A stretch of DNA of 52,155 bases. Origin: a virus. Made by a program: the position numbers and the translations under genes. Positions 2,887 to 25,155 of this stretch are shown in pieces (position 1 is the stretch's first letter; each line of letters starts with the position of its first letter). Location of the stretch: positions 1 to 52,155 of IMG/VR virus record IMGVR_UViG_3300043411_001021. The stretch is one strand, 5' to 3'. The notes under the pieces were generated by a model that did not search any database, was not told the DNA's origin, and saw only the letters and a list, made by a program, of their open reading frames with translations.

Positions 2887-3939
2887 ATGATAGACATAAA
2901 TTTATACAATAAATACGTAGAAGATAAGTTAGTCACAAGACGCGAACATAACAACGGTGATTTACTAATTTGGAACTACACCCCCCGCACACAATTCTCT
3001 CGTGCTTGGGATGACGTGACAATGATGTGTCGAGGGTTAATTACTAATAGAGAAGGTGAAATCATTGCTCGACCTTTTAAGAAGTTTTTTAATTATGGAG
3101 AAGTGGGCGATAACATTCCCGAAGGTGGATTTTCAGTCACAGAGAAGTTAGATGGTTCTCTTTTTATATTAGCAAAACATAACAACGAGTACATCACAGC
3201 TACACGAGGGTCTTTTTATTCAGACCAAGCAAAAAAGGGTAGAGAGATTCTAGATAGATACGTACAAGAATATGGTAATTTATATTTAGAAGGTATCACA
3301 TATTTATTTGAAGTAATTTATCGTGAAAATAGAATTGTCGTAGATTACGGAGATGATGAGAAGTTAATATTAATTGCAGCAATCAACACTGAAACTGGTG
3401 AAGAGTTAGATATTAAAACTTGTCCACACCCTGATCGCGTTACATATCACGGGGATATGGAAACTTTTGAACATCTTATTGCTAATGCGGGGGCGGAAAG
3501 TAACCGTGAGGGGTTCGTTATCCGTTATTCAGATGGCACACGTCTTAAATTAAAGTTTGATGAGTATTGCAGACTACATAAAATCATAACAGGAGTTAAT
3601 AAGCACCGGATTTGGGAGATTTTAAAGGCTGAGGATAGTTTAGATGAGTTACTGGAACTTGTCCCAGATGAATTTTATAATTGGGTGAAAGAAACAGTAA
3701 ATTACTTTAAAAAAGAACACTATATGTTAAAACAGGAAGCACGCTCAGTATATGTATGTGTACAGGATCTCCCAACACGTAAAGAACAAGCACAAGAGAT
3801 CTTTAAAACAATACACATACCTGTGATACGTTCGTGTGTATTCCTACTTTTAGATAAACGTGATAACGAAGTTGACACAGCTATTTGGAAAGCATTAGAA
3901 CCTCACGGTGATGAAAGACCTTTTAAGGAGGAAGTATGA
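2887..3939 (+). CDS. rnlA: RNA ligase, T4 Rnl1 type
   Basis: This 350-residue ATP-dependent RNA ligase joins 3'-OH and 5'-phosphate RNA ends through an enzyme-AMP intermediate. The nucleotidyltransferase motifs are in order. Motif I is EKLDGS with the adenylated lysine at K87, a YLFEVIY segment fits motif IIIa, motif IV is EGFVIRY, and motif V is LKLKFDEY. An Rnl1-like N-terminal segment (ARPFKKFFNYGE) precedes motif I. In T4 this enzyme works with Pnkp to reseal tRNA cut by the host anticodon nuclease PrrC. The same partner is encoded two genes downstream, so tRNA repair is the likely job. It overlaps the next gene by 4 bases (ATGA). Confidence 0.93.
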   Translation: MIDINLYNKYVEDKLVTRREHNNGDLLIWNYTPRTQFSRAWDDVTMMCRGLITNREGEIIARPFKKFFNYGEVGDNIPEGGFSVTEKLDGSLFILAKHNNEYITATRGSFYSDQAKKGREILDRYVQEYGNLYLEGITYLFEVIYRENRIVVDYGDDEKLILIAAINTETGEELDIKTCPHPDRVTYHGDMETFEHLIANAGAESNREGFVIRYSDGTRLKLKFDEYCRLHKIITGVNKHRIWEILKAEDSLDELLELVPDEFYNWVKETVNYFKKEHYMLKQEARSVYVCVQDLPTRKEQAQEIFKTIHIPVIRSCVFLLLDKRDNEVDTAIWKALEPHGDERPFKEEV

Positions 3940-4289
3940 AAATTTTAGATCAAATTTCGGAATTATTTTCTTTAAAGATTAAAGAAATTGCAAAGCGTTC
4001 GGATGAAAGACATCTTGGTGATGGTTTTAATTTAGAAAGATTAGATCGTATCTTACAAAGAATTTATCTACATGATCGAATGAGTGATGGAGATTTTAAA
4101 GAGCTTCAGATGCTTGGGTTTCTTAAAGGTGCGCGTATAAAAGCAAAACCTTTTGAGGTAGGGCAGAAGGTGAAGTATTTTGATATAAACACTACTGTAA
4201 CAGGGGTTAAATATGTTCCTGAATTAAAGTGTTGGCACGTACAAAGTGTAGTAAATAGTAATTGGATACATGAGAGGTTTTACAAATGA
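3936..4289 (+). CDS. Hypothetical protein in RNA-repair operon (117 aa)
   Basis: It is coupled to the ligase by an ATGA overlap and to the next gene by another. The N-terminal 60 residues are charged and helical (repeated Lys/Arg and Glu/Asp). The C-terminal half has a beta-type pattern (KPFEVGQKVKYFDINTTVTGVK) like a small SH3-style barrel. No family recognised. Tight coupling suggests expression, and perhaps action, with the repair enzymes. Confidence 0.7.
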   Translation: MKILDQISELFSLKIKEIAKRSDERHLGDGFNLERLDRILQRIYLHDRMSDGDFKELQMLGFLKGARIKAKPFEVGQKVKYFDINTTVTGVKYVPELKCWHVQSVVNSNWIHERFYK

Positions 4290-4540
4290 TAATAGACTAT
4301 GTAGATTTCACACACATAGATACACCTTTTACGAGGAGACGTGAGTTAGATGTGGGAGATGTTTTTATCAATCAAGGACAATGTAAAGCGTGTGGTTGGG
4401 TCATAAGATCTAAAAACAGACATAACTATGTGACCTGTAATTGCGGAGAATGTAGTATAGATGGTGGAAGTTGGTATGTAAAATATAGTGGACCTTTGGG
4501 GTTACACACCGTTTATTATAATGATATAGAGGAAAAATAA
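4286..4540 (+). CDS. Small zinc-ribbon-like protein (84 aa)
   Basis: CKACGW near residue 34 and CNCGEC near residue 52 supply paired cysteines in a zinc-ribbon arrangement. The rest is short beta-like segments ending in an acidic tail. It overlaps its upstream neighbour by 4 bases, and its stop shares one base with the next ATG (TAATG). It may be a nucleic-acid-binding accessory in the repair operon (inference). Confidence 0.65.
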   Translation: MIIDYVDFTHIDTPFTRRRELDVGDVFINQGQCKACGWVIRSKNRHNYVTCNCGECSIDGGSWYVKYSGPLGLHTVYYNDIEEK

Positions 4541-5400
4541 TGACAGGTAAATTAGTGATGATGCGTGGGCTGCCTGGTAGTGGAAAAAGTACTTATGCAA
4601 AGGAACTTGTAGGAAAAGGATTTGTTCGGATATGTAAAGATGACCTTCGTTCTATGATGAGCAACGGAGTCTGGAACGGTAAACGTGAGAAACGTGTAGT
4701 TCGTGTTCGTGATTTTATTATTCGTGACGTTTTGGAATCGGGCGGAAATGTTGTTGTAGATGACACTAATTATAATTGGGAAGATCATTTACGCGGGTTG
4801 GCTTCGGAGTACAGCGCTAAGTTTGAAGTGATAGATGTTGACACAGATGTTGACACATGTATTAAGCGTGATCTTGCGCGTGAAAACTCTGTTGGAGCTT
4901 CTGTTATTTGGAGGATGTATTACGAACACGTTTCTCCTCCTGAGAAATATGTCGCTCCAGAAGGATCAATGGAGGTTATATTATGTGATTTAGATGGAAC
5001 TCTAGCACTCATGAATGATGAGAATAATTCTCGTTCCCCTTATGATTGGGAGCGTGTAGGAGAAGATGCTGTTTGTCCTGCAGTTAGTTATATAGTACAC
5101 CAAATACAATCTGGTTATGAGTCTCGACCCGTGATACTTGTTAGTGGACGTGATGAAGTTTGTCGTAGTGAGACAGAAGCTTGGTTGGAAAAACATGATA
5201 TAGAATATAAAGCTTTGTTTATGCGTCCTGCTGGTGATAAGCGAAAAGACACAATTGTGAAGCGAGAAATATTTGACCGAGAGATTCGTGATAAGTATGC
5301 TGTGTTATTTGTCTTGGATGATAGAATTTCCGTGTGCCGTCAATGGTACGGAATGGGATTGCCTTTGCTTCGTGTTGGCGATCCGGATGCGGATTTCTAG
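4540..5400 (+). CDS. pseT: Polynucleotide 5'-kinase/3'-phosphatase, T4 PseT type
   Basis: This 286-aa two-domain end-healing enzyme is close to the 301 aa of T4 Pnkp. The N-terminal P-loop kinase has GLPGSGKST (G10-T18) and DDT at about 74-76. The C-terminal HAD phosphatase has the DxDGT motif (D150-L-D152-G-T), SGRDE, and a late VLDDR acid pair. It removes 2',3'-cyclic or 3'-phosphate and phosphorylates 5'-OH ends, making RNA breaks ready for the ligase encoded just upstream. The order kinase then phosphatase is the same as in T4. The two enzymes together form a complete heal-and-seal RNA repair pair. Confidence 0.94.
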   Translation: MTGKLVMMRGLPGSGKSTYAKELVGKGFVRICKDDLRSMMSNGVWNGKREKRVVRVRDFIIRDVLESGGNVVVDDTNYNWEDHLRGLASEYSAKFEVIDVDTDVDTCIKRDLARENSVGASVIWRMYYEHVSPPEKYVAPEGSMEVILCDLDGTLALMNDENNSRSPYDWERVGEDAVCPAVSYIVHQIQSGYESRPVILVSGRDEVCRSETEAWLEKHDIEYKALFMRPAGDKRKDTIVKREIFDREIRDKYAVLFVLDDRISVCRQWYGMGLPLLRVGDPDADF

Positions 5401-5409
5401 GAGGTTAAT

Positions 5410-5676
5410 ATGAAAGATTGTTGTGCAAAAATGTATCTTCACATTAAAGAATGTGAGTTTGGTTATAAGGGTGATGATAATATAGTTTTTACTGATGTTG
5501 TTATTAATTCTTTGAGAGAAAAGGGCTACGTCGATGGGAAGATTTTAGATAAAGTCTTAGATCGTGTTGCTTGGTTAGAACGAGAGTATTTTAAAGCTGG
5601 ATTTTTGCGTAAAGAGTTACAGGACAAAAATAATGCTTTGGTATCATCTTTGAAGCAACTTGCAGGTGATGTGTAA
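5410..5676 (+). CDS. Hypothetical protein in RNA-repair operon (88 aa)
   Basis: It starts with ATG after a TAGGAGG Shine-Dalgarno and ends in TAATG overlapping the next start by one base. It has two Cys near the N-terminus (CCAKMY) and a largely helical, charged remainder. It lies between the kinase-phosphatase and the RlaP-like gene. No family recognised. Confidence 0.7.
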   Translation: MKDCCAKMYLHIKECEFGYKGDDNIVFTDVVINSLREKGYVDGKILDKVLDRVAWLEREYFKAGFLRKELQDKNNALVSSLKQLAGDV

Positions 5677-6428
5677 TGGCGTTTGCTCCTCGTGAGATGG
5701 TTCCTGGTATTGACTTTGTATATGGTGCATTGTCTCCTTCTGAAACCCCCCTCGTTGTTGGTCTTGTTGGGTCTGTGGCGTATGGGTTGGATGTATCGGA
5801 TTCGGATAAGGATTATTTGGGTGTGCATTATGTGGATGTTACTCGGCTGTATGGCTTTGGTGCTGTAGATTTGTTAAAGACGTCACGTGTACGTGGTGGT
5901 CCAGACTTTTGCTCACATGAGATACATAAGTTTTTGACATTAGCATTAGGGTGTAATCCAACTGTTATTGAACTTTTGTTTTTAGATGATTATGAGTATG
6001 TGTCTTCGGATTTTTTAGAGTTGATAGAGATGCGTTCGGCTTTTCTTTCAACTAAAAAAGTGCGTAATGCTTATGGTGGCTATGTTTTAGGGCAAGCTAA
6101 AAGACTTAAGTCGCGTGTAGATTCTGGGTTAGAAGGTTTTGATCCCGATTTAAAAAAGAGAACAAAGAAACATGCAAGGCATTGTTTCAGATTGCTATTT
6201 CAGTGTGAAGCTTTGTTAAGAACCGGAGAAGTTGTTATTGATGTTTCGGATATTCGAGAAGAAATTTTCGAAGCTGGGGAAATATGTGTTCGAGATGAGA
6301 GTGCGTTTTTTGATTTGATTGTTGAAAAGGTGCGAAGTTTAGATTCTGTGGAAAGCGTGTTACCGCTGTATGCGGATCGTGACAGGATTGAAGATTGGTT
6401 AATTGAATTTAGGAGAAATCATGCGTAA
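5676..6428 (+). CDS. RlaP-like nucleotidyltransferase (Pol beta superfamily)
   Basis: Near the N-terminus the protein reads LVGSVAYGLDVSDSDKDYLGV, which is the G-S-x3-G ... D-x-D active site of the DNA polymerase beta superfamily (G32-S33, with D44 and D46 the likely metal ligands). The spacing and the helical region that follows match the YcgL/RlaP family (PF10127), described as RNA-repair-associated nucleotidyltransferases. Length is 250 aa, as expected. It is in one operon with an RNA ligase and an end-healing enzyme, so it probably adds nucleotides to damaged RNA ends before sealing (inference). A more general nucleotidyltransferase role cannot be excluded. Confidence 0.8.
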   Translation: MAFAPREMVPGIDFVYGALSPSETPLVVGLVGSVAYGLDVSDSDKDYLGVHYVDVTRLYGFGAVDLLKTSRVRGGPDFCSHEIHKFLTLALGCNPTVIELLFLDDYEYVSSDFLELIEMRSAFLSTKKVRNAYGGYVLGQAKRLKSRVDSGLEGFDPDLKKRTKKHARHCFRLLFQCEALLRTGEVVIDVSDIREEIFEAGEICVRDESAFFDLIVEKVRSLDSVESVLPLYADRDRIEDWLIEFRRNHA

Positions 6429-6954: not shown

Positions 6955-7779
6955 CTAGTTAACATCCGACGAGGGATCGGAATCTTCGTGGGTAAGTTCA
7001 GACTCATACAAAGCATAAATAATTATATCGCTATTATCAACCTCAGAAGGTTGTATAAATGAATTTGTAGTTGCTATATTTGAGAAGTGTTTATATAACT
7101 CTTGAGTACCTTCTGAAAATATACCGTGAGATACGTAAAGGGATACTCTTTCCTTTACTACATCTAGTATTTTTGCAATATTTATTACAGTTTCTCCAGT
7201 ATCACAAATATCATCTACAACAATAAAATTAGTATTAGGTTTTAATTGATAGCCTTCAGGATCTAATAGTGGTAGAGGATTACTTGCAAATTTAACACAT
7301 GGGATATACCCTGCGAATACTGATGGATTATTTAATTTAAAAAAATTAGTATAGCGCTCAGTAGCAACGAGTACCGGTTTATTAGTACTTTTTAGATTTT
7401 CTACATAATGAATTATATTATTAAAAAGGTCTTGTTCTCGCACATGTAATTCTAAAAACTTTGTTTGATCTATTAGTGTTTGAATACTCGAAGAGTGCGG
7501 ATCATACGTGACAATAGTAGCAGGAGATTTTCTTTGGGCATCTAATGCGTTTATGTATGTTGAAAGATCACTTTTAGGTGGGTGATCCGCTCTCGCATAC
7601 GGAAAATAGGGTAAGTGAATGACAGGGTGTCTACGGATTGCTTGTAAGGATGTAATAGCTCCATCTGAATCACGCACTCTAATAATTGGGTAGTCTTCGC
7701 CATATTCGTCAGGATTAAGGCTAACCGCTCCGTCTGGATATAGTGTTGGCAATCCTGTGTATGTGTAAATAGACTCCAT
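6955..7779 (-). CDS. prs: PRPP synthetase-like phosphoribosyltransferase
   Basis: The protein has the ribose-phosphate pyrophosphokinase layout. LPYFPYARAD (about 56-65) corresponds to the Prs flexible-loop motif. TYDPHSSSIQ (about 91-100) matches the D-x-H catalytic/metal segment. VVDDICDTGET (187-197) is the PRPP-binding loop. It would make PRPP from ribose 5-phosphate and ATP for nucleotide or NAD synthesis. At 274 aa it is somewhat short against bacterial Prs (about 310). Phage Prs is often paired with NadV, but no NadV is in this window. It has its own leftward promoter. Confidence 0.82.
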   Translation of the reverse strand: MESIYTYTGLPTLYPDGAVSLNPDEYGEDYPIIRVRDSDGAITSLQAIRRHPVIHLPYFPYARADHPPKSDLSTYINALDAQRKSPATIVTYDPHSSSIQTLIDQTKFLELHVREQDLFNNIIHYVENLKSTNKPVLVATERYTNFFKLNNPSVFAGYIPCVKFASNPLPLLDPEGYQLKPNTNFIVVDDICDTGETVINIAKILDVVKERVSLYVSHGIFSEGTQELYKHFSNIATTNSFIQPSEVDNSDIIIYALYESELTHEDSDPSSDVN

Positions 7780-20236: not shown

Positions 20237-20308
20237 ATCACTATAGGACAATGGTTAGTCCGCTTGGTTTTCATCCAGGAAATCAGAGTTCGATTCTCTG
20301 TAGTGATA
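20237..20308 (+). tRNA. tRNA-Glu (anticodon UUC)
   Basis: A complete 72-base cloverleaf. Acceptor ATCACTA/TAGTGAT, D stem GGAC/GTCC, anticodon stem CTTGG/CCAGG with loop TTTTCAT (anticodon TTC), T arm CAGAG-TTCGATT-CTCTG, discriminator A. No CCA is encoded. Confidence 0.93.
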
Positions 20309-20314
20309 CTAGTG

Positions 20315-20323
20315 TGGTATAAT
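20315..20323 (+). promoter_or_regulatory. Extended -10 promoter between tRNA-Glu and tRNA-Cys
   Basis: TGGTATAAT directly after tRNA-Glu, with no clear -35. Predicted +1 is about 20330. The following 130 bases hold a possible hairpin set (ACGG ... CCGT around 20333-20375, with CTAC/GTAG inside) and then tRNA-Cys and tRNA-Pro. Confidence 0.55.
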
Positions 20324-20458
20324 ATATACCCACGGTGAGAAACCTACGCCTTAAGTAAGTAGTTAGTATTGCCGTACTTTTTAAAAAAGAAAGGCTATAT
20401 CGTGAATACATACTCAAGCCCTTCCATCTGTTGTTACCCCTTGCCCAGTTATTAATAC

Positions 20459-20533
20459 GCACACTTGGTGAAGTGGTAACACAATGATCTGCAAAATCAT
20501 TATGCATCGGTTCGATTCCGATAGTGTGCTCCA
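20459..20533 (+). tRNA. tRNA-Cys (anticodon GCA)
   Basis: Acceptor GCACACT/AGTGTGC, D arm GTG...CAC, anticodon stem ATGAT/ATCAT with loop CTGCAAA (anticodon GCA), T arm ATCGG-TTCGATT-CCGAT, discriminator T, encoded CCA at 20531-20533. The next tRNA starts at the very next base. Confidence 0.95.
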
Positions 20534-20607
20534 CTGGATATAGCTCAATTTGGTAGAGTACTCGGTTTGGAACCGAGGGGTTGTAAGTTCAAATCTTGCT
20601 ATCCAGA
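20534..20607 (+). tRNA. tRNA-Pro (anticodon UGG)
   Basis: Acceptor CTGGATA/TATCCAG, D arm GCTC...GAGT, anticodon stem CTCGG/CCGAG with loop TTTGGAA (anticodon TGG), T arm GTAAG-TTCAAAT-CTTGC, discriminator A. No encoded CCA, unlike the adjoining tRNA-Cys. With a zero-base gap, both ends must be made by processing of one precursor. Confidence 0.94.
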
Positions 20608-20637
20608 CTAAAACTTTCTTTAATATAAAAAATAAAC

Positions 20638-20649: not shown

Positions 20650-21339
20650 GTGAATAGTCCTAAAATTGTAGTGTCCACAGGGTGGCGTTTTGAACCTGAA
20701 TATATGTTGGAAGATTGGAAAACCAACACCTCATGGTTCGATGGGCAGATTATTTATGATGATAGAGAGCGTGATTCTGCGGATCGTTGGATAGATGAGT
20801 CATTTTTATATACTGAATTGAGAAGAATGGCTTTAGAGCAAGGTGCGGACTGGATAGCTCATATTTCAATAGATGAACGCCTTGACCTTAATGCAGAAAC
20901 AATAATTCGTGAGAGAATAAATTATTTAAAAAGAACTACTTTACGACTACCTGTAAAAGAACTTTACACACCTACATCATATAGAGACAATAAAGGTTTT
21001 TGGCAACATGAAGAATCTCGGATATATCCATTATTAGAAGATAATGTCTATAGTGATGTACCTTTCCATAACCCAATTGCGCCCTTAAGAGAACATGACC
21101 GTTTCATGCAATTGATGTCTATCCCTGTGAATATTTACCACCAAAAAATGATTGAACCATCTAGCAGAGAGAATCGTGTTAAAATATATAATGAAGTTGA
21201 CCCAACTGCTTCTCTCACAGTGCTAAATGAATATGAGTATTTAACCAACGAAGACAATATTATTTTAAAAGAAATTGAAAAACCATACGGATATATTCCA
21301 CCTTATAGGACATTTAAATACGAGACAGGGACACAATAA
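20650..21339 (+). CDS. Glycosyltransferase-like protein (GT-A type)
   Basis: The 229-aa protein starts PKIVVSTGWRFEPEYMLEDWKTNTSWFDG and has an ADWIAHISIDERLDL segment. This fits phage GT-A-like glycosyltransferases, where an acidic motif binds the metal and nucleotide sugar. It lacks a full canonical DxD, so the activity is uncertain. It heads the glycan cassette of 20650-24084. A short gene at 22024 repeats the pattern of its N-terminus. The GTG start looks leaderless. Confidence 0.65.
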   Translation: MNSPKIVVSTGWRFEPEYMLEDWKTNTSWFDGQIIYDDRERDSADRWIDESFLYTELRRMALEQGADWIAHISIDERLDLNAETIIRERINYLKRTTLRLPVKELYTPTSYRDNKGFWQHEESRIYPLLEDNVYSDVPFHNPIAPLREHDRFMQLMSIPVNIYHQKMIEPSSRENRVKIYNEVDPTASLTVLNEYEYLTNEDNIILKEIEKPYGYIPPYRTFKYETGTQ

Positions 21340-21340
21340 A

Positions 21341-22027
21341 TTGAAAGATTTAAACGATCAAATTTCAAACTACACAGACTTTAACTCATGGCTTATTAAA
21401 AAACGATATGAGCATCTCTCTAGATATTTTAGAGGAGATACTTGCTTAGAAATGGGATGTGCAGATGGTTCTGGTACTGTTATCTTAAATAATTATTTTA
21501 AAGATTTAACAACAGTAGATGGAAGCTCTACTGCAATATATGAAGTTGGTAAACTGCTTCCTAAGATTAAAAGACATTTCTCAAGTTATGAAACAATGAA
21601 ATTTAACACTAAGTTTGACACAATTGTTCTGGCGCATGTGTTAGAACATGTTGATAACCCACAAACTGTCTTAAAAAAAGCTAAAGAACATCTTGCACCT
21701 GGTGGAGTTTTAATTGTCGATGTTCCTAATGCAGATAGTCTACATAGACAGGCTGGTGTTGAACTACATTTATTAGATCGTATAACAGATTTAAATGAAA
21801 CAGATATCTCAATAGGACATAAACGAGTTTATACGCAACACACTTTTTATGATGAGCTTCGTGAATTGAACATGATTATCTCTACCTTCGGGGGTATGTT
21901 TATAAAAGTAGTTTCAAATAAACAAACTGAAGAATTATTTAGTGAAGAACAACTAGATGCTTTTTTTCAAGTAGGTGTTAATAATCCACACGTAGCTGCT
22001 GAAATCTACGGAGTCTTAGAAAAATGA
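21341..22027 (+). CDS. SAM-dependent methyltransferase (class I)
   Basis: YFRGDTCLEMGCADGSGTVIL is motif I (the AdoMet-binding Gly loop), TTVDGSSTAI the acidic strand, and FDTIVLAHVLEHVDNP ... LAPGGVLIVDVPN the post-I region of the class I Rossmann fold. I take the TTG at 21341, which follows the upstream stop by one base. The longer frame from 21275 would overlap the upstream gene by 65 bases. It gives 228 aa after the start. In this setting it probably methylates a sugar or a small glycan intermediate (inference). Confidence 0.8.
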   Translation: MKDLNDQISNYTDFNSWLIKKRYEHLSRYFRGDTCLEMGCADGSGTVILNNYFKDLTTVDGSSTAIYEVGKLLPKIKRHFSSYETMKFNTKFDTIVLAHVLEHVDNPQTVLKKAKEHLAPGGVLIVDVPNADSLHRQAGVELHLLDRITDLNETDISIGHKRVYTQHTFYDELRELNMIISTFGGMFIKVVSNKQTEELFSEEQLDAFFQVGVNNPHVAAEIYGVLEK

Positions 22028-22212
22028 AAATAGTCGCAGCATTTTCTAAAAGATACGAACCAGAATATCTTGTTGATGAACTTCGAGAAAATTTAGCGTG
22101 GTGTGATGATATTATTGTTCGTAATCCATCACTTGACTGGATACCAGTAGGTGCAGACTATTATATAAATTCTTTAGAAGAACTCCCAGAACTATTAGAA
22201 AGTATAAAATGA
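22024..22212 (+). CDS. Truncated paralogue of the glycosyltransferase-like protein
   Basis: Only 62 aa. Its first 35 residues (KIVAAFSKRYEPEYLVDELRENLAWCDD ...) follow the same pattern as the N-terminus of the protein at 20650 (KIVVSTGWRFEPEYMLEDWKTNTSWFDG), with identical R-[FY]-E-P-E-Y. The remainder is short and different. It overlaps both neighbours by 4 bases (ATGA at each end), so it is translated in the cassette. It may be a remnant of a duplicated transferase or a small partner protein. Confidence 0.65.
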   Translation: MKIVAAFSKRYEPEYLVDELRENLAWCDDIIVRNPSLDWIPVGADYYINSLEELPELLESIK

Positions 22213-23273
22213 TACCAATACATCGTTGCGTAGTTTCAGACTACTCAAAAAAATTAGTAAACGAAGTTTTAGATTCCGGAAATCTTGTACAAGGTAAAAT
22301 GGTAAAGCGTTTTGAAGAAGAGTTTGCGGAGATTAGTGGGGCAAAATATGCAGCAGCGACATCTAACGGAACAACTTCTTTAGAAATGATGATGCGTGCA
22401 GATGGTGTTGATGAGGATTATGTTGTATTTACAAATCCACTATCTTTTGCAGCAACACCTCGTGCAATTAGACATGTTGGGGCTACTCCAATTTTTATTG
22501 ATGTAGAGTATGAAACAGGAAATATTGACCAAGTAAAATTACATCAAGAAAATGATAGTCTGAGGTCTCATTCAAAAACTAGCACACTAGTTGTAGATTT
22601 ACACGGGGTACAAGATCCATTAGTTACAAATAATATTCCAATATATAGAGATGCATCACAAGCACACGAATCTAAGTTAGACACTGATAGTGTTGCAGCT
22701 TCATATTCTTTTCACGCTTCAAAAAACATAACCGCTGGTGAAGGCGGTATGGTTGTATCTAATGATTTTAATTTGATAGAAGATATAAAATTACTTAGAA
22801 ATCATGGTATGAACTCATACGGTACCTTTAAATCTATAGATGGTTATAATGCACGTATGACTGACTTACAAGCAGCAATAGGTATAGGAAGTTTACGAAA
22901 TCTTTCAGAAATTAATGCAATACGTACTGATAATGCTCGGTATTATGATCAATCATTTTCCGGTATTGATAGCTTGAAGCTACCTGTGACACAGTATATT
23001 TATCACCATTATTGTTTAAGATCTCCATTTGCAGACCAAATAATAACCATACTTAGATATGAAGGCATCGACACGCGAAAGTATTACTCTAAACCTCTCA
23101 CAGAATTGCCAGAATATGAAGGTTACGAATTATCTAATCGTGCCACGTTTCCTAATGCTTATATGGTGTGTGAAGAATCATTCTGTATTCCAGTACATCA
23201 ACACTTGACAAAACAAGAAAAAGATTACATAGTAAAAAAGGTTATACAAGCAGTGGAGCATGTGAATGGATAA
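22209..23273 (+). CDS. DegT/DnrJ/EryC1-type sugar aminotransferase
   Basis: A PLP enzyme of 354 aa, a little shorter than the usual 360-390. ATSNGTTSLEM is the phosphate-binding segment. IYRDASQAHES contains the ring-stacking Asp/His region. SYSFHASKNITAGEGGM carries the PLP lysine (K172). NHGMNSYGTF ... YNARMTDLQAAIGIGSL is the family hallmark after it. It moves an amino group onto a keto-sugar nucleotide. The adjacent oxidoreductase could supply the keto sugar. Confidence 0.9.
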   Translation: MIPIHRCVVSDYSKKLVNEVLDSGNLVQGKMVKRFEEEFAEISGAKYAAATSNGTTSLEMMMRADGVDEDYVVFTNPLSFAATPRAIRHVGATPIFIDVEYETGNIDQVKLHQENDSLRSHSKTSTLVVDLHGVQDPLVTNNIPIYRDASQAHESKLDTDSVAASYSFHASKNITAGEGGMVVSNDFNLIEDIKLLRNHGMNSYGTFKSIDGYNARMTDLQAAIGIGSLRNLSEINAIRTDNARYYDQSFSGIDSLKLPVTQYIYHHYCLRSPFADQIITILRYEGIDTRKYYSKPLTELPEYEGYELSNRATFPNAYMVCEESFCIPVHQHLTKQEKDYIVKKVIQAVEHVNG

Positions 23274-24084
23274 TAATAATATATGGGTTATAGGTGCGTC
23301 AGGCTCGATGGGATCAAAGCATTTAGCTAAACTTGAAAAAAGGACTGATGGTGTCAAAGCATGGGGCTGGGATATTGCAAATAAAGGCGGAGCAAGTAGT
23401 TATAAAGATTTAATTCATACAAAAATTAATAACTTCATAATAGTAACACCCTCAAATACACACTATGAAATAGCTAAGTATTATATTGAGCATGGAAAAA
23501 ACCTATTGATTGAAAAACCAATTTCTTTAAATTACAAAGAAGCACAAACGCTTTACAGGCTTAGTCGCGAATATAATACTGTTTTAATGACTGGGCACAA
23601 TTACGGGTTCAACCCTGATTTTAGACGAGCTTTACCTGAACTGTATCACGCAAAAACTTTAGTGTTTGGTATGCATTTACCACATGATAATATTGTAGAG
23701 AATGTAGTGTTTGACCTGGGAATACATCAATTTGAACTAGCTTTTAAGTTAGGTCAAAGAGAGTTTGATCGAGATTTTAAACTGAAAGAAGTACGTATAA
23801 AACCAGGAACACAAAATGTCTACGTACATGCCCAAATAGGATCTAAAAATTGTCATTTTAATATGAGTTATAGAGGAGGTAATGACCATAGAACGCTACA
23901 CTATGACCATACAGGTGAAGTAGATTTCCACGATGCAGACGGTAAATCCCCCGACGCAATGGAAAACCTTCATAATGCTTTTATCAAGGCTTGCGAAGTA
24001 GGAATTTGGCAGTCTCACTATTCGGAAAACGCAGTTGCTGCTGTGCAGTTAGCTGAGATGGTTCAAAATAAACTTTTTAGATAA
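23266..24084 (+). CDS. Gfo/Idh/MocA-family oxidoreductase
   Basis: The N-terminal Rossmann fold opens WVIGASGSMGSKHLAKL and continues to FIIVTPSNTHYEIAKYYIEHGKNLLIEKPISL, whose EKP is the family signature. GHNYGFNP follows. At 272 aa it is shorter than typical members (about 330), mostly in the C-terminal domain. With the aminotransferase it probably converts a sugar nucleotide to an amino sugar (oxidation, then transamination). It overlaps the aminotransferase by 8 bases. Confidence 0.85.
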   Translation: MDNNNIWVIGASGSMGSKHLAKLEKRTDGVKAWGWDIANKGGASSYKDLIHTKINNFIIVTPSNTHYEIAKYYIEHGKNLLIEKPISLNYKEAQTLYRLSREYNTVLMTGHNYGFNPDFRRALPELYHAKTLVFGMHLPHDNIVENVVFDLGIHQFELAFKLGQREFDRDFKLKEVRIKPGTQNVYVHAQIGSKNCHFNMSYRGGNDHRTLHYDHTGEVDFHDADGKSPDAMENLHNAFIKACEVGIWQSHYSENAVAAVQLAEMVQNKLFR

Positions 24085-24110: not shown

Positions 24111-24431
24111 ATGGCAATAGAAAACAACTTCATCAAAGATGAATTAGACAACCCAGCAGGCGGAACATCAAAAGATATTGGTGTTGATATAAGTTGGCAA
24201 AATGGTCCAATAGCTGGTCCAGATGATAGAAACGGTGCTTTTGTAATTGATGTAATTCAAATTGCAATTGACCGCATTAACTTTTACAATGAAAGCCAAT
24301 TTCGATGCAGAGAAAACTCTCTAGCAGTAACTAAGTTAGAAGAAGCTATACATTGGTTAGAGTCTCGTAGAGGTCGAAGAGCTGGTGAAGGAATATTAGG
24401 TACACACAAAGTAGATAAAACTGAAGGATAA
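24111..24431 (+). CDS. Acb2/Tad1-type cyclic-nucleotide sponge candidate
   Basis: The C-terminal half contains FRCRENSLAVTKLEEAIHWLESR (R67-E68-N69-S70 ... T74-K75-L76-E77-E78 ... W82). This is the signature of the Acb2/Tad1 hairpin domain, which binds cyclic oligonucleotides (CBASS) or gcADPR (Thoeris) and so silences these defences. A preceding helix (VIDVIQIAIDRINFYNES) fits the other arm of the hairpin. The C-terminal GEGILGTHKV is also seen in phage members I know. Which ligand it binds cannot be told from sequence. It stands alone downstream of the glycan cassette. Length 106 aa. Confidence 0.75.
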   Translation: MAIENNFIKDELDNPAGGTSKDIGVDISWQNGPIAGPDDRNGAFVIDVIQIAIDRINFYNESQFRCRENSLAVTKLEEAIHWLESRRGRRAGEGILGTHKVDKTEG

Positions 24432-24432
24432 G

Positions 24433-24461
24433 TTGACAAGAACTAATCTTTATGTTAAATT
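24433..24461 (+). promoter_or_regulatory. Strong promoter of a short transcript
   Basis: TTGACA (24433-24438), a 17-base spacer ending in TGT, and TAAATT (24456-24461). Predicted +1 is about 24468. The transcript meets a strong terminator about 50 bases later without any ORF. Confidence 0.8.
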
Positions 24462-24467
24462 AAAAAA

Positions 24468-24525
24468 ATCTTAAGTCGGGCTTATATGGCTTAGGGGAAT
24501 TAAACAGGGGGGAACCCCTGTTTTT
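24468..24525 (+). ncRNA. Predicted small RNA (about 58 nt)
   Basis: Bounded by the promoter at 24433 and the terminator at 24502-24526. Before the terminator stem it can form TAAGTC/GGCTTA (6 base pairs, about 24473-24478 and 24488-24493, loop of about 9-10). No ATG-led frame fits inside it. It may act as a regulator, a decoy or an attenuated leader for the gene at 24541. Confidence 0.5.
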
Positions 24526-24526
24526 T
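24502..24526 (+). terminator. Rho-independent terminator of the small RNA
   Basis: A perfect 9-base stem AAACAGGGG/CCCCTGTTT (24502-24510, 24515-24523) with a GGAA tetraloop and a T run to 24527. The next promoter starts inside the T run. Confidence 0.93.
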
Positions 24527-24535
24527 TGTTATAAT
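24527..24535 (+). promoter_or_regulatory. Extended -10 promoter for a leaderless gene
   Basis: TGTTATAAT immediately after the terminator. The ATG at 24541 lies at the expected +1. Confidence 0.65.
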
Positions 24536-24540
24536 AAGGT

Positions 24541-24720
24541 ATGACTTCTAAAAAACGTTTTAAAAAAGCCGATTCACATAGGCGAAAATGGGATTGGGAG
24601 TACATTCTCACAGATATTAAACAAAAACGAGATAAGCATCTAGGCAGACTTCGTAAAAGTGAAAAGCTTAAATTAAAAAACAATCCAGAAAAAGATTTAT
24701 ACTCTAAAAAAGATTTATGA
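24541..24720 (+). CDS. Small very basic protein (59 aa)
   Basis: About a third of the residues are Lys or Arg (start TSKKRFKKADSHRRKWDWEY; later KLKLKNN), so nucleic-acid binding is plausible. The ATG lies 5 bases after a perfect extended -10 element and has no room for an SD, so the mRNA should be leaderless. No family recognised. It ends convergent with a degraded-looking leftward frame. Confidence 0.6.
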   Translation: MTSKKRFKKADSHRRKWDWEYILTDIKQKRDKHLGRLRKSEKLKLKNNPEKDLYSKKDL

Positions 24721-24857
24721 TTTACTTTTAAAACCAGGCCAGAGGTAAAAGCGATACATTCCAACGACGGTTGGTCGTAACAGATATTCAGAGTATTGAC
24801 CTAGGTAGTTGATATATTCGGACTGTTCCTCTGGACCACCTGTTTTTAATGATGTGA
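24715..24857 (-). pseudogene. Possible leftward gene remnant
   Basis: The frame from about 24857 to 24715 reads like real coding sequence (SLKTGGPEEQSEYINYLGQ ... LRPTVVGMYRFYLWPGF). It has no usable start: the only in-frame ATG (24912) lies inside the neighbouring rightward gene and reads poorly up to here. It may be a 3' remnant of a lost gene, or a gene with a non-standard start. Otherwise the 24721-24888 gap holds only the promoter at 24854. Confidence 0.25.
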
Positions 24858-24882
24858 CTTTATTTAAAATAAATGATAAACT
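24854..24882 (+). promoter_or_regulatory. Promoter for the leaderless GroES operon
   Basis: GTGACT (24854-24859), a 17-base spacer ending TGA, and TAAACT (24877-24882). The GTG start at 24889 falls exactly at the predicted +1. Confidence 0.6.
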
Positions 24883-24888
24883 ATATAT

Positions 24889-25155
24889 GTGACATATGAA
24901 GAGTTTGAACAAAAGGCCCTAGATTTAGGATTTGAAATTGAAAAAGAAGATGATAGTAATATCACATATTTCTTAATAGATGATGTAGGAGTCTCACATT
25001 TCAATGACATATATTCCCCAGTAAATTTTGCATTTTTTAGATACTGGTCAGATGATATATTATGTGATAGACTCAGATTAGAAGTATTAAATAGAAGAGA
25101 CTCTTCTATTGCTTTAGATTATTTAGAATTATTATCAACGTTAGAAAGGAAATAA
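24889..25155 (+). CDS. Hypothetical protein upstream of GroES (88 aa)
   Basis: The GTG start lies at the predicted transcription start with no SD. The protein is acidic and aromatic (EKEDDSNITYFLIDDVG, FAFFRYWSDD) with a helical C-terminus. It is 2 bases from groES, so the two are one operon. No family recognised. Confidence 0.6.
   Translation: MTYEEFEQKALDLGFEIEKEDDSNITYFLIDDVGVSHFNDIYSPVNFAFFRYWSDDILCDRLRLEVLNRRDSSIALDYLELLSTLERK

Follow-up and report, generated by a model that had tools for sequence, protein, structure and literature searches.

A compact Tad1 homologue, probably a nucleotide-messenger sponge, in an actinophage-like genome

Tad1 (Thoeris anti-defence 1) and Acb2 are phage proteins that, according to the literature, have a two-helix hairpin and the sponge principle in common. 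Published descriptions give Tad1 an N-terminal sheet of four strands followed by two helices, whereas Acb2 has a short N-terminal helix ahead of its two helices (PMC12043709). The oligomeric state, ligands and anti-defence effect of Tad1 have been described (PMC12043709, PMC12657218, PMC13282480), and the Tad1 of phage phiKZ (gp184; PDB 8y6v), a 230-aa protein with a long N-terminal extension, is packaged and injected and blocks both CBASS and Thoeris (PMC10449902, PMC13282480).

Here we describe a gene in a 52,155-nucleotide stretch of viral DNA (IMG/VR record IMGVR_UViG_3300043411_001021; the window) whose product is a Tad1 homologue and not an Acb2 protein: clearly a newcomer to a known family, and no new kind of system. 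The ORF is intact and free of frameshifts, with ribosome-binding-like purines 5′ of its start; it runs from an ATG at 24111 to a stop at 24431 on the + strand and encodes 106 aa (MAIENNFIKDELDNPAGGTSKDIGVDISWQNGPIAGPDDRNGAFVIDVIQIAIDRINFYNESQFRCRENSLAVTKLEEAIHWLESRRGRRAGEGILGTHKVDKTEG). Its parts are as follows:

24111–24431, + strand: the tad1-like gene, encoding a compact Tad1 homologue of 106 aa (PDB sequence match; fold match with TMq 0.72 to 8smd; Vibrio and Bacillus phage Tad1 homologues).
24120–24197, + strand: reduced N-terminal β-sheet, residues 4–29 (strands 4–9, 15–22 and 25–29), with the clade motif D-E-x-x-NPAGG (AlphaFold2 secondary structure, alignments).
24195–24236, + strand: WQNGP...RNG loop, residues 29–42, with the family-invariant Q30, G32 and G42 (kept in 60/60 short and 12/12 long homologues).
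24243–24386, + strand: antiparallel helical hairpin, residues 45–60 and 67–92, with the putative ligand-pocket residues Y59, N69, R86 and R90 (AlphaFold2 model, conservation).
24387–24410, + strand: C-terminal tail EGILGTHK, residues 93–100, corresponding to the tail that flanks the pocket in Tad1 (alignment with Tad1 chains; role of the tail from PMC12043709).

Sequence searches with the window protein consistently retrieved Tad1. In phmmer searches of the PDB, the top six distinct sequences were all Tad1, from two species, with E-values from 4e-10 to 2e-7 (CmTad1, E 4.4e-10, over residues 27–100 of the window protein; cbTad1, E 1e-7), followed by phiKZ gp184 (E 0.004). A profile of 20 relatives recovered CmTad1 at 1.7e-21, cbTad1 at 1e-17 and, through the shared C-terminal Tad1 domain, phiKZ gp184 at 1e-12. 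Acb2 chains were found neither among the PDB sequence matches at E≤10 nor among the profile matches at E≤1. Against phages, tblastn gave 39 matching records, including the validated Tad1 of SBSphiJ7 (38% identity, E 6e-13) and a homologue from Vibrio phage 1.244 (42% identity, E 2e-19). A relative (L022) is 57% identical to the window protein and 50% identical to the SBSphiJ7 Tad1. The protein also matches PHROG 2428, a family of unknown function (E 1.9e-18), whereas PADLOC gave no match.

The earlier note, made from the letters alone, had called the product an Acb2/Tad1-type sponge on the strength of the signature RENSLAVTKLEEAIHW, which is indeed present at residues 67–82. This family call was right and can be narrowed: no Acb2 chain is matched by sequence or fold, the N-terminus forms β-strands rather than a helix, and the Tad1 motifs Q30xG, N41G42 and R86...R90...G97T are present. 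By itself the SLAITKLEEAIHWLE motif cannot tell Tad1 from other hairpin proteins: a separate hairpin-only protein on another contig (L007:4893–5090) carries the motif without the Tad1 sheet, and it matches neither Tad1 nor Acb2 in the PDB.

A search with the Pfam hairpin profile, Acb2_Tad1_hairpin (PF24729), had been proposed as a check, with a missing hit and a fold lacking the antiparallel hairpin as grounds for abandoning the idea. PF24729 is the best Pfam match of the window protein (E 1.2e-4), covering model positions 29–52, the second half of the hairpin, and the structural prediction contains the two helices, so these grounds do not apply; nevertheless, the 22.6-bit score lies below the 27-bit gathering cut-off. 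This cut-off is a poor criterion of membership because clear Tad1 homologues fall short of it too: SBSphiJ7 Tad1 scores 34 bits, but that of phage Mater reaches 16.9 bits and that of Vibrio phage 1.244 has no match.

An AlphaFold2 monomer prediction with 20 natural sequences as input (mean pLDDT 84, pTM 0.72) placed three strands at residues 4–9, 15–22 and 25–29 ahead of antiparallel helices at 45–60 and 67–92. In Foldseek searches of the PDB with this model, ranks 1–20 were all Tad1 chains, matched over the full length with probability 1.00 and TMq up to about 0.72; after these the E-value jumps from 1e-3 to 0.8 (next match 7b7n), and no Acb2 was present among the significant matches. In BFVD, the top fold match (TMq 0.87) came from Vibrio phage VP-1, a protein labelled ‘Acb2/Tad1 hairpin domain’. 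Given the published plans, with a sheet and two helices in Tad1 and a short N-terminal helix in Acb2, the window protein follows the Tad1 plan, though its sheet is smaller. That it might instead be a hairpin-only CBASS sponge of the Acb2 type with an unrelated N-terminal extension could be argued from PF24729, which covers the hairpin of both families; however, Acb2 lacks an N-terminal sheet, its chains are absent from the sequence, profile and significant fold matches alike, and the N-terminal strands and QxGP...NG segment align with Tad1, where Acb2 has its short helix (PMC12043709). We reject the Acb2 assignment and hold it to be exceedingly improbable.

Relative to its closest described counterparts, the window protein is best viewed as a shortened Tad1. 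With the Tad1 of Bacillus phages SBSphiJ7 and SPG24 it shares the family, the hairpin and the invariant residues (38% identity over residues 17–106 for SBSphiJ7), but the SBSphiJ7 protein has 142 aa and a longer N-terminal sheet. Hence the ‘longer N-terminus’ of the earlier note holds in comparison with Acb2, but the segment is about 35 residues shorter than in SBSphiJ7 Tad1 and represents the Tad1 β-sheet in reduced form. Likewise, cbTad1 (7uav, 7uaw, 8smd) and CmTad1 (8kbb–8kbd) match with TMq mostly 0.61–0.72 at probability 1.00 and with the pocket residues in register, whereas the window protein lacks roughly their first 20–30 residues and has tyrosine for phenylalanine at the aromatic pocket position. 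Closer in size are uncharacterised homologues from Vibrio phages 1.244.A, BX-1 and VP-1, which are similarly compact (98–103 aa from the matching start), have an N-terminal GG motif and are 40–42% identical; in their second helix, however, the RENxxAxTKLEEA sequence is no longer present (AANAKAIHHLRIGL in BX-1).

Querying IMG/VR with clade alignments as well as with the window protein and a relative from a phage yielded about 60 distinct short homologues, mostly of 103–111 aa, in unrelated environmental phages. The N-terminal segment that most of them share takes the form D-x-x-GNPAGG-x-x-x-G-x-G-[IL]-x-[IV]-x-WQNGPLGRG. Homologue alignments with the window protein begin at its residues 4–10, and several homologues have an in-frame stop 2–20 codons upstream of the match, which supports the assigned ATG and indicates that the short N-terminus is no annotation artefact. 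The contigs bearing short homologues range from 38% to 71% GC, and at 59 homologue loci no neighbor family was widespread, save ORFs that overlap tad1 (terminase-like at 5 loci); we thus rejected conserved partner genes, and tad1 appears to be transferred on its own. A quick family tree clusters the short and the long forms strongly but is weak in its deep branches, with 39 of the 72 inner branches unsupported; it is too poorly resolved to establish a single origin for the short form. The window protein itself sits on a long terminal branch and pairs with one relative (L048; SH-aLRT 91). Two Tad1 queries matched 39 and 105 phage records, none of them from an actinophage; in bacterial genomes the window protein as query found no relatives, whereas the clade alignment recovered five MAG contigs. 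In the literature searched, no short-clade member with biochemical characterisation turned up, and structures with cyclic ligands come from cbTad1 and CmTad1 and not from this clade.

Residue conservation, counted over 60 short and 12 long homologues, delineates a core that the window protein retains. Q30, G32, G42, A72, R86 and R90 are invariant in the entire set, R55 and F64 in all 60 short homologues, and N69 is kept in 59/60 of the short and 70/72 of the combined set; position 59 is aromatic in 59/60 short homologues (tyrosine in 58) and phenylalanine in 9 of the 12 long forms. In the cbTad1 chain 7uav, the residues aligned to Y59, N69, R86 and R90 are F, N, R and R at chain positions 83, 93, 110 and 114, which fits the gcADPR contacts that we take to be F82, N92, R109 and R113 if the construct carries one leading residue. 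By this register and that presumed contact list, the gcADPR pocket would be kept in the window protein as Y59, N69, R86 and R90.

At other positions the protein departs from its short relatives: R87 (threonine in 58/60), E93 (arginine in 46/60), L96 (glutamate in 58/60) and I51 (alanine in 53/60). Of these, three fall within the end of helix 2 or the C-terminal tail, the tail being a segment that borders the ligand pocket in Tad1 (PMC12043709). The change at L96 need not matter on its own because cbTad1, solved with gcADPR, also has leucine there; nonetheless, as the pocket-rim positions R87, E93 and L96 are changed (T, R and E in the relatives), the ligand range may differ. One could thus envisage a Tad1 fold whose reduced sheet and altered rim shift it to another ligand, mainly cyclic trinucleotides, another TIR product or decoy nucleotides. 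The distinct N-terminus common to the 60 short homologues, the four departures, the long terminal branch and the known differences in dinucleotide range between Tad1 members (PMC12043709) all favor such a shift, but the core positions Y59, N69, R86 and R90, matched to the presumed cbTad1 contacts, are unchanged or conservatively changed, and we consider it unlikely, if worth keeping in mind. The long branch and the several departures from near-invariant positions might also be taken as marks of a decayed, non-functional relic; this is very improbable in view of the intact, frameshift-free ORF, the purines upstream of it and the retention of every fully invariant family residue.

Homology extends along almost the whole protein, the fold comprises the sheet and the hairpin, and the family-invariant residues are kept. 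By analogy with characterised Tad1, we propose, with a probability of roughly 0.85, that the protein is a compact Tad1 sponge, a small and putatively oligomeric protein that would hold the nucleotide messengers of Thoeris and CBASS without degrading them. It would bind host second messengers, namely gcADPR from Thoeris and cyclic tri- and dinucleotides from CBASS, and retain them uncleaved; with the messengers sequestered, the effectors would stay inactive and the infected cell would not be killed before phage release. The assembly may be a hexamer (a trimer of dimers) with six pockets for gcADPR or cyclic dinucleotides and two sites for cyclic trinucleotides, as in characterised Tad1. The earlier note had held the ligand to be not predictable, which is apt as regards the details; by homology, its likeliest ligands are gcADPR and cyclic trinucleotides. 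Against the sponge reading we count the sub-cut-off PF24729 score, the long branch and the tail that is off consensus at R87, E93 and L96. It is rather improbable that the short clade (~106 aa, with the D-x-x-GNPAGG N-terminus) has an assembly or ligand range unlike that of the studied Tad1, for instance one directed at an undescribed actinobacterial TIR or CD-NTase signal.

The genomic context points to an accessory gene of an actinophage-like virus. The DNA polymerase and SNF2-type helicase of the window are nearest to those of phages of Micrococcus, Microbacterium, Arthrobacter and Gordonia, supporting the previous assignment to actinophages; GC content is 33–39% over most of the window, the polymerase found no close relative of this phage in IMG/VR, and a structural gene at 48 kb had no match among phages. 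The tad1 gene is the last of a + strand sugar cassette, starting 26 bases past the preceding stop; directly upstream, at 20650–24084, this cassette encodes a SAM methyltransferase, a DegT/DnrJ/EryC1 aminotransferase (best NCBIfam match PseC-like) and a Gfo/Idh/MocA oxidoreductase. Downstream are small ORFs without matches, GroES (0.7 kb away) and thioredoxin. With such neighbors we rejected a local counter-defence island, and the ‘counter-defence stretch’ formerly seen here lacks local support.

The structural block occupies 30–52 kb on the − strand, with tad1 outside it in the + strand accessory segment behind the sugar genes. This bears on whether the protein could be primarily a virion component, with the Tad1 fold serving packaging or injection, or the sponge being carried in the particle. 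The injected phiKZ gp184 (PMC10449902), whose chain 8y6v_I is among the PDB matches, and homologues annotated as structural proteins in Lactococcus phage 1706 and Bacillus phages CM1 and P59 lend this some color; yet jumbo-phage members such as Phabio have a long N-terminal extension that the window protein does not share, and packaging in the manner of gp184 is unsupported given the position of the gene. We therefore regard a virion role as quite improbable.

Immediately past the tad1 stop, at 24433–24531 (+), lies a promoter-like site with an extended −10 (TTGACA-17-TAAATT, preceded by TG) and a predicted transcript of ~60 nt with two hairpins and a strong terminator at its end (fold z-score −3.95); it had no Rfam match and no exact copy in IMG/VR. 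The ‘strong-promoter small RNA’ formerly noted beside tad1 is hence plausible as a promoter-terminator unit, but nothing was found that links it to tad1. Between two + strand genes, 24715–24912 (−) encodes a 65-aa ORF with a protein-like C-terminal half (GGPEEQSEYINYLGQYSEYLLRPTVVGMYRFYLWPGF) and no Pfam match. Farther away, 18–21 kb from tad1, an RNA-repair set at 2887–6428 (+) comprises a T4 Rnl1-like RNA ligase (PF09511), a PNKP-type polynucleotide kinase/phosphatase (PF25109) and an RlaP-family nucleotidyltransferase (PF10127), likely an answer to tRNA-cleaving defences; genes for tRNA-Glu, -Cys and -Pro are located at 20237–20608. Separately, the product of 6955–7779 (−), 274 aa long, is phosphoribosyltransferase-like (PF00156, sub-threshold) and resembles a divergent phage PRPP synthetase. 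A NAMPT-like partner, which one would expect for the NAD-restoring pathway known from phages, was not noticed among the window ORFs listed.

The locus brings Tad1 to an actinophage-like genome, a group absent from both sets of Tad1-matching phage records. It also points to a compact version of the sponge that environmental phages exchange often and as a single gene; the Thoeris and CBASS systems of the hosts concerned have received little study. This minimal form offers a handy way to test what part of the Tad1 sheet is required for assembly and ligand capture.
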